DNA of 64,000 nucleotides from Sulfurirhabdus autotrophica (lineage in GTDB: Bacteria > Pseudomonadota > Gammaproteobacteria > Burkholderiales > SMCO01). The stretch is taken from positions 372,001 to 436,000 of the forward strand of contig NZ_SMCO01000001.1 in NCBI RefSeq assembly GCF_004346685.1, given 5' to 3'. The notes below the pieces were generated by a model. It worked only from the letters and a program-made list of their open reading frames with translations. It did no database searches and had not been told where the DNA came from. Positions 14,288 through 19,655 of this stretch are shown piece after piece (position 1 is the first letter of the stretch; every line of letters starts with the position of its first letter). The position numbers were made by a program, and so were the translations under genes.

Positions 14288-16675
14288 ATGCATTTCCCTA
14301 TTTCCTCAAAACGCATTGAATTACCCATTGAAGGCATGACCTGCTCTGCATGCGCCAACCGTATCGAAAAAAGCTTGAATAAACTGCCAGGCGTCAAAGC
14401 TGCGGTCAATTTTGCCAGCGAAAAAGTTCAGATTGATTACGAAGTGGGTGAAGCCAACCCCGCCAACCTTGTTGAAACAATCAAAAAAACAGGTTATTCC
14501 GTTCCCAACCAACGCATTGAACTTGCTCTGGAAGGCATGACATGTTCTGCCTGTGCAGCCAGAATTGAAAAAGTGTTGAACAAAAAACCCGGGGTAGAAG
14601 CAACGGTAAATTTTGCAGCTGAAAAAGCGAGCATTATGCTGTCACCGGGTACATCAACCATTGCAGATTTGATCTCATCAGTGAAAAAATCCGGCTATGA
14701 CGCGCATGAGTTGGCAGAAGTCAGCCGCGAAGATGAAAAAGCACGCAGACAGAACGTATACCAGAAAGAAGTCCGGTTATTCTGGATATCGGCTGCGTTC
14801 ACCCTCCCTCTGGTTCTCCAGATGGGTGCCATGTTTTCAGGCAGCCATGAAGAATGGCTGCCTCGCTGGCTGCAAATGGTACTCGCCACGCCAGTGCAAT
14901 TCTGGGTTGGCAAGCGTTTTTACATGGGGGCCTGGAACGCTTTACGAGGTGGCAGCGCCAACATGGACGTGCTGGTAGCCTTGGGTACCAGCATGGCTTA
15001 CTTCTTCAGTGCTGTTGTCACTTTGTTTGGTCTGACTGAACTTCACGTCTATTTTGAAGCCTCCGCCGCCATCATAACTTTGATACTCATGGGAAAGCTT
15101 TTAGAAGCCCGTGCCAAAGGAAAAACATCTACCGCTATTGAACAACTGCTTAAACTTCAGCCAAAAACCGCTCGCGTAGAGCGAGATGGCGAGATTATTG
15201 AAGTAGAAGTGAGCAGCATCCATATAGGCGAAGTCTTTATAGTGCGCCCTGGCGAACGTATTCCTGTTGATGGTGACATCATCGAAGGCCATTCCAGCGT
15301 GGATGAAAGCATGCTTACGGGTGAAAGCTTGCCCGTCACTAAAGAAGTGGGTAAAAAGGTCTTTGCTGCCACTCAAAATAATCAAGGCATGTTGCGGTGT
15401 AAGGCCACAGGGGTGGGTTCTCATACCGCATTGGCAGAAATTGTACGCCTGGTAGAGGAAGCACAGGGTTCCAAGGCCCCTATTCAGCGTTTGGCTGATA
15501 CCATTTCAGGAATTTTTGTTCCGGTTGTAGTGGCCATAAGTGTCATCACTTTTGGCTTATGGTGGGGTATCGGAGGCAGTTTTACCGTGGCGCTGGTTAA
15601 TGCTGTCGCGGTCTTGGTCATCGCCTGCCCCTGCGCGCTGGGCCTAGCCACACCCACAGCGATCATGGTGGGTACTGGCAGAGGTGCGCAATCAGGTGTG
15701 CTGGTTAAAAATGCAGCCGCACTGGAACGCGCAGAAAAAATCCAGATACTGGTTGTGGACAAAACAGGTACCCTGACTGAAGGCAAACCCTCAGTTACCG
15801 ATGTTGTGCCCGTTAATGGTCATAGTGAACAAATATTGCTCAATATGGCCGCAACGCTTGAACAGGGTTCCGAGCATCCACTTGCACAAGCGATATTGAA
15901 TCACAACAAGGAACAATCTGGATCCACCTCTGCCATATTAAACTTTTCTGCCGTCGCAGGAAAAGGCATTCAAGCCGAAATTGAAGGTGAAATCGTATGG
16001 CTTGGCTCACCGCGCTTTCTGATTGAACAAGGTGTCGTCATTGACGATAAACAGATTGCTCAACTTACCACCCAGGGAAAAACAGTTATCGGCATTGCAA
16101 AGCCCAACGGGGTTATTGGATATATTGCCATCGCAGACAAAATTCGTACCACCTCAACTAACGCCATTTCCCGTCTGAAAAACATGGGGATTGAAGTGGT
16201 GATGATTACTGGCGACAATCAGGCCACGGCGAAAGCCATTGCTCAACAAGCTGGAATTGATACTTTTTTTGCAGAAGTTTTACCTCAACATAAAGCCGAA
16301 TCAATCAATAAGTTGCGCGAACAAGGAAAAATCGTTGGTATGGTAGGTGATGGCATTAACGATGCCCCTGCCCTTGCTGCTTCAGATGTGAGCTTCGCTA
16401 TTGGCAGCGGTTCAGACATAGCCATTGAAGCCGCAGATGTGACGCTGATGCGCAGCGATTTGAATAGTGTGGCTGATGCGATCAGTTTATCCAAGGCCAC
16501 GTTAGGGAAAATTCGACAAAACCTGTTTTTTGCATTTATTTACAATATTCTGGGCATACCTCTGGCAGCGTTCGGCATGCTTAATCCGGTTATCGCAGGG
16601 GCGGCCATGGCAATGAGCTCAGTATCTGTCGTCAGCAATTCGCTACTGTTAAAGCGTTGGAAAACAGCAAACTAG
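14288..16675 (+). CDS. copA: Copper-exporting P-type ATPase
   Basis: A 795-residue P1B-1 ATPase that pumps Cu(I) out of the cytoplasm. Two N-terminal heavy-metal domains carry [14 protein letters not shown] (about 17-30) and [14 protein letters not shown] (about 83-96). The transmembrane metal site is [14 protein letters not shown]. The phosphorylated Asp is in DKTGTLTEG, and the actuator has MLTGES. Later transmembrane ligands are in [12 protein letters not shown] and [12 protein letters not shown]. Together these identify a Cu(I) rather than a Zn/Cd pump. A strong AAGGAG ribosome site precedes the ATG, and copper control is expected from the operator upstream. It is complete and followed by copZ and csoR. 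Confidence 0.96.
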
Positions 16676-16740
16676 AATGCAACACATTTTCAAAAACGTT
16701 ATTTGTATTAGCATAATGCAATTTATAAAGGAGCATTAAA

Positions 16741-16950
16741 ATGGATTCAAAAAAACTGAATGTTAAAGGGATGACTTGCATGGGCTGCGTTAAAAGCGTA
16801 AAAAATGTACTTGAACCAATACCCGGTGTTAGTAATGTAGAAGTAGTCCTGGAAACCGGCAAAGTCACTATCGGTTATGATGCTTCTAAAACAGATACTG
16901 GTGCTTTTAAAACAGCAATCGAAGATGCCGGCTATGAAGTCGTCGGCTAA
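16741..16950 (+). CDS. copZ: Copper chaperone CopZ (HMA domain)
   Basis: A 69-residue single heavy-metal-associated domain that shuttles Cu(I) to CopA. The binding motif is GMTCMGCVKSV, where Met replaces the more common Gln, Ser or Ala between the Cys. The end DAGYEVVG is typical of the fold. Good ribosome site AAAGGAG. It lies 65 bp after copA and overlaps the start of csoR. Confidence 0.93.
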   Translation: MDSKKLNVKGMTCMGCVKSVKNVLEPIPGVSNVEVVLETGKVTIGYDASKTDTGAFKTAIEDAGYEVVG

Positions 16951-17257
16951 AACAGTCAGCAAACCTGTTTGTCACTCAGAACCTAAAAATGTCGTTCAGC
17001 CCCATAAAAACGCACTCCTTAAACGGTTAAACCGTATAGAGGGACAAGTGCGTGGCATTTCCAAAATGGTTGAAGGTGACCGCTATTGCATAGATATATT
17101 GACCCAGATCAGTGCAATTAAATCCGCACTTAATGCGGTTGGTATGCAACTTTTGGAAGACCATACCAAAGGCTGCGTTCAAAATGCAATAAAATCTGGA
17201 AACGGAGATGATGAACTGGCAGAGTTATTAACCATTGTCAGGCAATTTGTACGTTAA
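16934..17257 (+). CDS. csoR: CsoR-type copper-sensing repressor
   Basis: A 107-residue all-helical metal-sensing repressor (DUF156 family). Core motifs are LLKRLNRIEGQVRGISKMVE and RYCIDILTQISA. The metal ligands have exactly the CsoR pattern: Cys in RYC, His 25 residues later in EDH, and Cys 4 residues further in KGC. That supports Cu(I) sensing over Ni/Co (RcnR) or formaldehyde (FrmR) sensing. The frame is open from 16877. I chose the ATG at 16934, overlapping copZ by 17 bp; an ATG at 16925 is also possible. It should bind the operator at 14212-14238 and release when copper rises. Confidence 0.9.
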   Translation: MKSSAKTVSKPVCHSEPKNVVQPHKNALLKRLNRIEGQVRGISKMVEGDRYCIDILTQISAIKSALNAVGMQLLEDHTKGCVQNAIKSGNGDDELAELLTIVRQFVR

Positions 17258-17380: not shown

Positions 17381-17674
17381 GTGAACGACGAAATCTTATC
17401 CAAAGAGCAACGCATTTTGCGCGTGATGCGCAAGGTACTGGCAAGCATTGTTAAAGACGCAACACCACAACCAGGTATGCTGCACCCCTTATCTGAAAGA
17501 ACGATTCAGGATATCCGTGAATGTTTTGGATTGATTTCTGCACGGGAAGCTGAATTGGCAGACAATGCCGGACTGAGCAGAAATGAAAAGCCTTTTTATA
17601 CAGATGAACCGCAAAAGAGCAATGTGGTTAAGTTACACAAACCCGGTTCTACCAAAAAACCAGAAGGGGAATAA
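17381..17674 (+). CDS. Conserved hypothetical protein (97 aa)
   Basis: A 97-residue soluble protein starting at GTG with a GGAG ribosome site. The N-terminal half is basic and helical (KEQRILRVMRKVLASIVKD), followed by PGMLHPLSERTIQDIRECFGLISARE. The tail is charged and Pro/Lys-rich (NVVKLHKPGSTKKPEGE). The regular structure and ribosome site make it a real gene, and I think similar proteins occur in related betaproteobacteria. I recognise no domain or function. It stands alone between the copper genes and the convergent DsrC-like gene. Confidence 0.75.
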   Translation: MNDEILSKEQRILRVMRKVLASIVKDATPQPGMLHPLSERTIQDIRECFGLISAREAELADNAGLSRNEKPFYTDEPQKSNVVKLHKPGSTKKPEGE

Positions 17675-17731: not shown

Positions 17732-18502
17732 TCAATTATCTATACACCCCTGAGGTTCAGGCAAACCGGCAATACGCGATCCTTGCCGGGATGGACCGCC
17801 AGGAAACAGATGATAAAGATAGTCGTGACTGCTCTTACCTTCACCTAGTTCACGCCGCATGTGCTTCATCAGCAATCTCACCATCGGGGTTATTCCATAG
17901 TTGAAATAGAATTTCCTGAGATAATTGATTACTTCCCAATGGTCAGGTGTAAGACGAATATGCTCTTTACTTGCCATGAATTCAGCCAGGCGCTCGTTCC
18001 AGTCAGCCAGGTTAACCAGATTACCCTTTTCTGTTACAGAGAAGACCTCCTTCTCAAACTCAAAAGTGCCTACAAAATGTGAAACTTCTTTTGCAGGCAC
18101 TGCTTTTGATTTCTTTCGGGTTATAACATGCATTCCCTCAATCTCAGCATCAAGCATAGGGACAGGGAGACCCGCAATTTTGGTACCTTGTGTCAAAACA
18201 CCATTCGGGAACAAGTTTTCCAGATATGCATCTGAAGATTTGATTTCCCCATCGGGCAATTTTTCGCTAATTTCCTTCTTGAGCAACTTTTTAATTGGCG
18301 AAATATTGTATTCTGTATAGTAAGCACGAAGTAAATTGAGAATCTCCCAATGGGCTGGTTTGAGCTCCAGTCCCTCTTTTTCAGCTAGCATAATAGCGAT
18401 CTCTTTATTCCACTCAGACAGGCTCTCCAAGCGCCCGCTACTAGTCAACTTCACTTTTTTTAAGGCATCCGAATGCTTTGCGGAATCAAACTGGCTGCTC
18501 AT
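17732..18502 (-). CDS. Tandem DsrC/TusE-domain protein
   Basis: A 256-residue protein made of two complete DsrC/TusE-like domains. Domain 1 (about 15-115) has LKPAHWEILNLLRAYYTEY, ISPIKKLLKK and YLENLFPNG...IAGLPVP. Domain 2 (about 142-256) has LTPDHWEVINYLRKFYFNY, TPMVRLLMKHM and YLYHLFPGG...IAGLPEPQGC. DsrC normally has two Cys in its C-terminal arm. Here the inner one is Ser (QGSRIAGLP), and the outer one is kept but is followed by three more residues. Domain 1 lacks both. There is only one Cys in the whole protein. It may act as a sulfur carrier like TusE or as a regulator. The ATG at 18502 has an AGGAG ribosome site. An unknown gene lies 100 bp upstream on the same strand. Confidence 0.85.
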   Translation of the reverse strand: MSSQFDSAKHSDALKKVKLTSSGRLESLSEWNKEIAIMLAEKEGLELKPAHWEILNLLRAYYTEYNISPIKKLLKKEISEKLPDGEIKSSDAYLENLFPNGVLTQGTKIAGLPVPMLDAEIEGMHVITRKKSKAVPAKEVSHFVGTFEFEKEVFSVTEKGNLVNLADWNERLAEFMASKEHIRLTPDHWEVINYLRKFYFNYGITPMVRLLMKHMRRELGEGKSSHDYLYHLFPGGPSRQGSRIAGLPEPQGCIDN

Positions 18503-18602
18503 GATCTTCTCCTGTACTGGAAGTACATATCCCAAGCAAGAATGGATAATTTAAAGGTTTCTTAATTCTAGAATGCAATGCCAATTATACAACTGTAAAG
18601 TT

Positions 18603-19655
18603 TTAGAATTTAAGAACTGAATTCCCATCAATCAGTAGTTTTTCCAAAAAGAGGCTACTGTTCTTCCCGTGTTTCTTGTATATATCGAGCAACTGCTGGC
18701 CCACTTTTGACCAATGATCTTTACCTTGGCAAACTGCTTCTGCCAATGGCTCAATATTTCCTGAAGCCACCCAACTCTGGTACCCCTTCATAGCCCGTGG
18801 AAAAAGCTCTTTGCGCATCCCATTAAAATTAGCAAAGTAAAAATGTAATGAGCTTGCAGCTTCTCTTTCAAGCAGCGCGGGAAGTGTGGAAAGACAATCT
18901 GCCATATGATCACGTACTGCACGCGCCATAATTTCTGCCTTGATTGACGTCAATGTTGACAACATTTCCGACCAACCCTCACCCAACAAATCTCCAGCCA
19001 TACCTTCACCCAGTTCATGCAGAATCATGGCTTCACTTTCATTTTCTGTCATGACCTCAAGCGCTAAATTAGGATTTTTCTGAAAATCATAAAAGCTGAA
19101 TGCACTGGCTTGCGTGTTATCCCGCTTCTTCCAATTCCATTCTTCGAATTTATCCCAGATATATCGTCGGACAGCTTCCCGGCGTAAATATATGGTGCGG
19201 TTTAATAATGCTGCCGGAGGGGAAATTAAATCTCGCGCGTATTCACAACCTGAAACAAGAATAGTAAATCCATTGCGCTTTTCTTCTTTAAGTAACTCAC
19301 CCAGAAAAAAATGCGGCTTGTGAAACCGGCCATACCCTCCGCTATACACATAGCCTTCTGGAAGTAATTTTCGGTTGATTGATTCACTATCAAACGGATC
19401 TTTCAAGTCTGAACCAACGCGCAAAGGAGCATAGGGTGATTCTTCAACGGTATTCCAGAGGTTTTCCCGCTCAACCATCCAGTTACCTAATTCATCCTTG
19501 GGCGGACTTTTACTGTATGGAATATCATTTTCCCATCGATAATACTGTCGCATTTCAAGAAGATAGGTGCACATTGTCATGTTTCGAGCATAACGTGCAT
19601 CCGTGATATAACAGTTTTGCTGGACAGCATCTACAAGATGGTGGAAATTTTGCAT
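18603..19655 (-). CDS. Hypothetical protein (350 aa), partner of the DsrC-like gene
   Basis: A 350-residue soluble protein with no signal peptide or membrane segment. I do not recognise the family. Features that stand out are an aromatic N-terminal third (LLEMRQYYRWENDIPY), a glycine/tyrosine block (LPEGYVYSGGYGRFHKPHF) and a strongly acidic helix ESEAMILHELGEGMAGDLLGE. The HELGEG part has the look of a metal site, but the full HExxH motif is absent. The start has a GGAGAA ribosome site. It is upstream of, and probably co-transcribed with, the tandem DsrC/TusE gene, so a sulfur-related role is a reasonable guess only. Confidence 0.75.
   Translation of the reverse strand: MQNFHHLVDAVQQNCYITDARYARNMTMCTYLLEMRQYYRWENDIPYSKSPPKDELGNWMVERENLWNTVEESPYAPLRVGSDLKDPFDSESINRKLLPEGYVYSGGYGRFHKPHFFLGELLKEEKRNGFTILVSGCEYARDLISPPAALLNRTIYLRREAVRRYIWDKFEEWNWKKRDNTQASAFSFYDFQKNPNLALEVMTENESEAMILHELGEGMAGDLLGEGWSEMLSTLTSIKAEIMARAVRDHMADCLSTLPALLEREAASSLHFYFANFNGMRKELFPRAMKGYQSWVASGNIEPLAEAVCQGKDHWSKVGQQLLDIYKKHGKNSSLFLEKLLIDGNSVLKF

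Follow-up and report, generated by a model that had tools for sequence, protein, structure and literature searches.

Two DsrC/TusE domains in one gene

The window (the whole 64,000-nucleotide stretch analysed here) carries on its minus strand a gene whose product has two DsrC/TusE domains. The gene begins with an ATG at 18502, its stop codon ends at 17732, and it has no internal stops. We refer to proteins of this architecture as doubles; 22 were collected (see below), and all counts of invariance are based on an alignment of these 22 proteins (A2). The features of the locus, in window coordinates, are as follows.

17732–18502, minus strand: double DsrC/TusE gene (P0001), 256 residues; from the open reading frame and the PF04358 and TIGR03342 profiles
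18158–18460, minus strand: domain 1, DsrC fold without arm cysteines (residues 15–115; PF04358, 93.7 bits)
18059–18142, minus strand: inter-domain linker (about residues 121–148; low pLDDT, faster dN)
17741–18058, minus strand: domain 2, DsrC fold with the outer Cys only (residues 149–254; PF04358, 128.5 bits)
18182–18184, minus strand: Thr107 codon, inner-Cys (CysB) position of domain 1; from the alignment of 22 doubles
18149–18151, minus strand: Asp118 codon, outer-Cys (CysA) position of domain 1; invariant, 22/22
17777–17779, minus strand: Ser242 codon, inner-Cys position of domain 2; from the alignment of 22 doubles
17744–17746, minus strand: Cys253 codon, outer arm Cys of domain 2; invariant, 22/22, then Ile-Asp-Asn
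18507–18512, minus strand: AGGAGA, a ribosome-binding-like site before the ATG; by sequence inspection
18603–19655, minus strand: Sfum_1244 family (DUF6866) gene upstream of the double, on the same strand and 100 bases away

On the plus strand, an open reading frame of 97 residues (17381–17674) is convergent with the double gene and had no Pfam or NCBIfam matches, and at 14288–17257 a P-type ATPase carrying two HMA domains precedes a Trns_repr_metal (CsoR-like) repressor, an ordinary metal-export pair. A promoter scan gave matches no more frequently than in shuffled sequence.

DsrC is a central sulfur carrier of dissimilatory sulfur metabolism, and a sulfur oxidiser may have as many as about ten members of its family. 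A sequence-only reading of this DNA had proposed that two DsrC/TusE domains sit in one 256-residue chain, each with its own W-E helix, LFP block and IAGLP arm, and had suggested a profile search of each half against PF04358. Both halves scored far above the curated cut-offs: PF04358 gave 93.7 and 128.5 bits for domains 1 and 2 (Pfam cut-off 24.9), and TIGR03342 gave 94.1 and 130.6 bits (NCBIfam cut-off 53.5). All three motifs were located twice, as the HWE helix (51–53 and 188–190), LFP (97–99 and 232–234) and IAGLP (109–113 and 244–248). The family profile was matched by all 22 doubles and also by all 22 first domains taken alone, and a sequence search found solved relatives in the DsrC of A. 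vinosum (1yx3), of A. fulgidus and of sulfate reducers.

Both halves are predicted to fold like solved DsrC. The model of the full protein had a mean pLDDT of 88.7 and a pTM of 0.81, and within it domain 2 matched A. vinosum DsrC (1yx3) with a Z of 15.5 (rmsd 2.0, 111 residues aligned). Domain 1 modelled alone (pLDDT 81.2) matched 7syb with a Z of 16.0 (rmsd 1.6 over 100 aligned residues) and A. vinosum DsrC with a Z of 15.6. Chance similarity to DsrC was ruled out by the E-values and the structure models, and by profile and predicted fold the double protein is a member of the DsrC/TusE/DsvC family. Linker residues 121–140 had a pLDDT of 56–59, and residues 253–256 fell below 50, which fits the expectation for a mobile arm. 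The arm of domain 1 (arm 1, residues 111–120) had a pLDDT of 85 in the full protein versus 64 in domain 1 alone; together with the pTM, this rise fits a packing of the two domains, and it may be partly a truncation end effect.

Arm cysteines and their conservation

We located the outer Cys (CysA) of DsrC as position +5 counted from the P of the AG[LIV]P motif. Domain 2 has Ser242 at the inner position and Cys253 at the outer position, the chain then ending in Ile-Asp-Asn; domain 1 has Thr107 and Asp118 at these positions, followed by Ala-Glu. Cys253 is the sole cysteine of the protein. This agrees with the sequence-only reading, which had noted that the inner Cys of domain 2 is replaced by Ser, that its outer Cys is not penultimate, and that domain 1 has neither arm Cys. 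C253, D118 and E120 are invariant (22/22), and in every double the chain continues for two residues or more beyond the outer Cys of domain 2. Ser occupies the inner position of domain 2 in 21 proteins, the exception being a Cys in one protein of the metagenome-assembled genome SZUA-229 (L115). In domain 1 the inner position holds Ser or Thr, apart from a single Ala and a single Val.

The cysteines of domain 1 had been described as lost. They are indeed absent, but this is not mere loss: because the outer-Cys position is an invariant Asp, within an invariant D-x-E, arm 1 (consensus IAG[LIV]PxPxLD[AVS]E) is, judged from the alignment, rebuilt rather than lost, which is a new result here. The missing inner Cys of domain 2, singled out earlier as notable, is likewise real but is in itself the normal TusE state; in organisms without DsrAB, TusE has Ala, Ser or Thr at this position (PMC3397948). 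The oddity is a TusE-like state in DsrAB-bearing organisms, with an outer Cys that is not penultimate. Neither domain has the two arm cysteines of canonical DsrC, and the C-I-D-N terminus departs from its penultimate outer Cys. Domain 2 has the outer arm Cys alone, as TusE does, and domain 1 by itself lacks an arm Cys, as do the Cys-less, putatively regulatory DsrC relatives, from which the double as a whole is set apart by Cys253.

Purifying selection acts on both domains: between closely related doubles dN was far below dS in each domain, and the dN of the linker exceeded that of either domain in five of six pairs. Domain 1 has diverged about 1.3 times as much as domain 2, and the two sets of distances correlate (r 0.68). 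Nearly all 22 doubles are acidic in both domains, with a net charge of −2 to −8 in domain 1 and −7 to +1 in domain 2.

Distribution and origin of the doubles

A profile built from the first four doubles (A1) was used with a threshold of 1e-45, which parts doubles from singles. In total, 22 doubles were found in 20 genomes of at least 17 genera, in the same class as the window's genome, so that the architecture and the single Cys, whose conservation across genera had been proposed as a check, do recur. All 22 are intact and, apart from the one inner Cys, have the same pattern, which excludes chance and sequencing error and rules out a frameshift fusion or other artefact. In an even sample of the class (369 genomes), 16 genomes carried a double, representing 14 of 272 genera; the carriers outside this sample are three in the window's own order and SZUA-229, a gammaproteobacterial genome. 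The sampled genomes of the window's own order numbered 399, of which three had a double and 88 had any match to the query, and in a phylum sample of 398 genomes (its make-up shown only in part) no genome but the window's own had one. SZUA-229 and G497 each have two doubles. The two complete genes of G497 are adjacent, about 320 bases apart (L065:8761–10571), giving four DsrC domains in a row. A phage or plasmid origin was rejected. The hits among phage and plasmid records were single TusE matches, each aligned to the query two times, and one scan of viral contigs, in which only two motifs were used, confirmed no relative.

A phylogeny of the two halves, also proposed in the sequence-only reading, was built from 104 domains and then, more carefully, from 73 (117 columns, with the deep branches unsure). 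The first domains of the doubles formed one clade (bootstrap 100, SH-aLRT 99), the second domains formed another (97/90), and the branch parting both from all singles had support of 94/92. Since the two clades are sisters, a single old tandem duplication, before the family spread, would explain all doubles; independent fusions are unsupported, as each domain forms a single clade. Single-domain relatives with the arm QGCRIAGLPxPxDC[IV]D ('CxD' singles, L155–L163) keep both cysteines and form a clade separate from the doubles in the tree of 73, and their arms suggest that the doubles descend from a protein with both arm cysteines. In two genomes, G612 (L160:1489–2235) and G492 (L162:1489–2230), two CxD-type singles, which each keep the two arm cysteines, follow one another head to tail at a distance of 34–39 bases. 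This is an unfused tandem with its own duplication in the tree, and it adjoins Rieske-like and phosphoribulokinase-like genes (identified by eye).

Genome context and co-occurrence with Dsr genes

A dsr operon that looks complete, with its own canonical two-Cys DsrC, lies on contig C6 of the window's genome; dsrA and dsrE were confirmed in it, and the other genes were named from order and sequence. The double gene lies on C1 and thus is not encoded with dsrAB/dsrEFH as canonical DsrC is; four further single DsrC paralogues are present. The double is an extra family member, since carriers have DsrC paralogues besides it, and most carriers count a canonical two-Cys DsrC among these. Within the class sample, dsrA was found in 14 of 16 carriers versus 105 of 353 non-carriers (Fisher odds ratio 16.5, p 4.8e-6, uncorrected for phylogeny, species not being independent); three of the four carriers outside the sample also have it, making 17/20 overall. 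The same 17 carriers have a DsrE/TusD homologue, and 14 of them have only one, which leaves no separate TusD copy for a dedicated TusE. The three carriers in which neither dsrA nor dsrE/tusD was detected are G576 (95% complete), G583 (81%) and SZUA-229; G443, a genus-mate of G583, has both dsrA and a DsrE/TusD homologue.

When the neighbours of the doubles were compared, no conservation was found beyond close relatives. This rules out an operon partner, and the double gene therefore appears to work alone or in trans. No DUF6866 gene was seen beside the remaining doubles, so the one upstream here is probably not a partner.

A proposed one-cysteine sulfur carrier and its rivals

The sequence-only reading had offered an asymmetric carrier, a scaffold or a regulator. 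The asymmetry is real and conserved, and this short list stands as a set of candidate roles. The double, carried by many sulfur-oxidising bacteria, looks like an unnamed branch of a known family, and this branch probably carries or senses sulfur. In A. vinosum DsrC the outer Cys alone binds sulfane sulfur, and the inner Cys, dispensable for binding, has been proposed to act in product release via a disulfide; TusE-type relatives lack the inner Cys (PMC3397948). The substrate of DsrAB, according to current models, is a trisulfide of DsrC, which spans both cysteines (PMC13293266). Because the canonical DsrC cycle needs both arm cysteines, the sequence makes it very unlikely that the double is a substrate of DsrAB or DsrMK: with the inner Cys absent, the intramolecular disulfide or trisulfide that these enzymes use could not form, and the outer Cys alone could carry a persulfide while the DsrAB/DsrMK cycle should not run.

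We tentatively favour, with somewhat less than even confidence, a persulfide carrier that works, like TusE, through one cysteine, and whose other domain is catalytically dead and would serve docking or arm control. As to loading, donor and docking, we infer that Cys253, on the flexible C-terminal arm of domain 2, would receive a persulfide from the TusA/DsrEFH pool and pass it on to a client. Domain 1, as an inert DsrC copy, may dock on the same partner as domain 2 (DsrEFH offers two donor sites) or on domain 2 itself, in which case its rebuilt arm could hold or gate the reactive arm. The invariance of the outer Cys alone, the presence of dsrA with a DsrE/TusD homologue in 17/20 carriers and the purifying selection on both domains argue for a carrier. 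Against it stand the lack of a conserved neighbour linking the double to any partner, the three carriers without detected dsrA and dsrE/tusD, and the position of Cys253, which, unlike that of DsrC and TusE, is not penultimate and so may not enter the same active sites.

The main rival, possible but doubtful, is a sulfur-sensing regulator, in which the fused pair would form a built-in dimer of DsrC's winged-helix-like fold and persulfidation or oxidation of Cys253 would alter how it acts on DNA or a regulator protein. A regulatory role has been proposed for Cys-less DsrC relatives, and DNA binding has been reported for A. vinosum DsrC; a gene that stands alone among variable neighbours, and whose product has lost the two-Cys cycle, would suit such a role. 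The fold has a weak likeness to the DNA-binding domains of PerR, Fur/Zur and LexA, but the Z values of about 3–5 lie in the range of common arrangements, and the acidity of both domains, unlike most DNA-binding domains, argues mildly against direct DNA binding. The loss of two-Cys chemistry, with DsrC motifs kept in both halves and dsrA co-occurring, would also suit a decoy or brake that replaces DsrC on DsrEFH or DsrAB and leaves the cycle uncompleted, tuning sulfur flux, with Asp118, in place of CysA in domain 1, helping to mimic a charged arm. We consider this unlikely: the invariance of Asp118 is in its favour, but in the model this residue begins a short helix (118–128), so that structural capping is as likely as mimicry, and the invariant Cys253 would be needless for a pure decoy.

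TusE takes a persulfide from TusBCD (or DsrEFH) and delivers it to MnmA. tRNA thiolation is near universal, and the double's rarity even where dsrA is present (14 of 119 such genomes in the class sample) argues against a dedicated TusE for tRNA 2-thiouridine synthesis where DsrEFH has replaced TusBCD. The single outer Cys, as in TusE, and the lone DsrE/TusD homologue of most carriers would agree with such a role, but that Cys is not penultimate, and the double scored 179.7 bits (in two stretches) on the NCBIfam TusE equivalog NF008562, below its cut-off of 191; we hold this reading to be highly improbable. Something of a long shot, too, is an autoregulated sulfur switch, in which arm 1, with its Asp in place of Cys, would sit on domain 2 (or DsrEFH) as a permanent mimic of a charged DsrC arm, and persulfidation of Cys253 would displace it, so informing a client outside the Dsr pathway of the cytoplasmic load of sulfane sulfur. 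If true, this would be a new way to read sulfur flux.

We found no description of a tandem DsrC form in the literature searched, although key subscription reviews lay outside the search and may mention one. The conserved asymmetry, with a reactive Cys in one half and an invariant Asp substituting in the other, comes with a defined target: one gene, usually single copy, in organisms that keep a normal DsrC. The double thereby makes testable the role of extra DsrC-like proteins, and also the question of whether sulfur in the cytoplasm has carriers or sensors outside the Dsr cycle.

Comparison with known systems

Genomes with a double have up to eleven PF04358 matches, and several Cys-poor arm types (RAWSTG, SFGSV, PGEEAKAYM, KGEH and KGGY) recur in them across genera, a largely unexplored set of paralogues. 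Upstream of dsrA in the window's genome, and divergent from it, is a Cys-less single DsrC paralogue (L083:11720–12049, which is G000:C6:50231–50530), and about a dozen other carriers have PF04358 matches divergent from dsrA, roughly 1–4 kb off, with arms ending GKGGY in those read; the Cys-less paralogue divergent from dsrA is a candidate dsr regulator. These GKGGY paralogues resemble domain 1 in lacking an arm Cys but differ from the double in being single-domain, in belonging to another clade and in lying divergently beside dsrA. The CxD singles resemble domain 2 in that the outer Cys is followed by [IV]-D and a few residues; unlike the double, they have one domain and both cysteines, and form a separate clade.

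The solved DsrC-family sulfurtransferase of Acinetobacter (7syb) is closely alike in fold to both domain 1 and domain 2 (Z about 15–16). E. coli TusE shares with the arm of domain 2 a single Cys, the outer one, but is single-domain with that Cys penultimate, and the double occurs mainly in Dsr-bearing genomes. With DsrC of A. vinosum (1yx3), the dissimilatory sulfite reductase 'gamma' protein, the double shares the fold in both halves, the arm motif and, in domain 2, an outer Cys at an equal distance after the GLP motif; it differs in its two domains, in lacking the inner Cys, in the two or more residues after its outer Cys and in lying outside the dsr operon.
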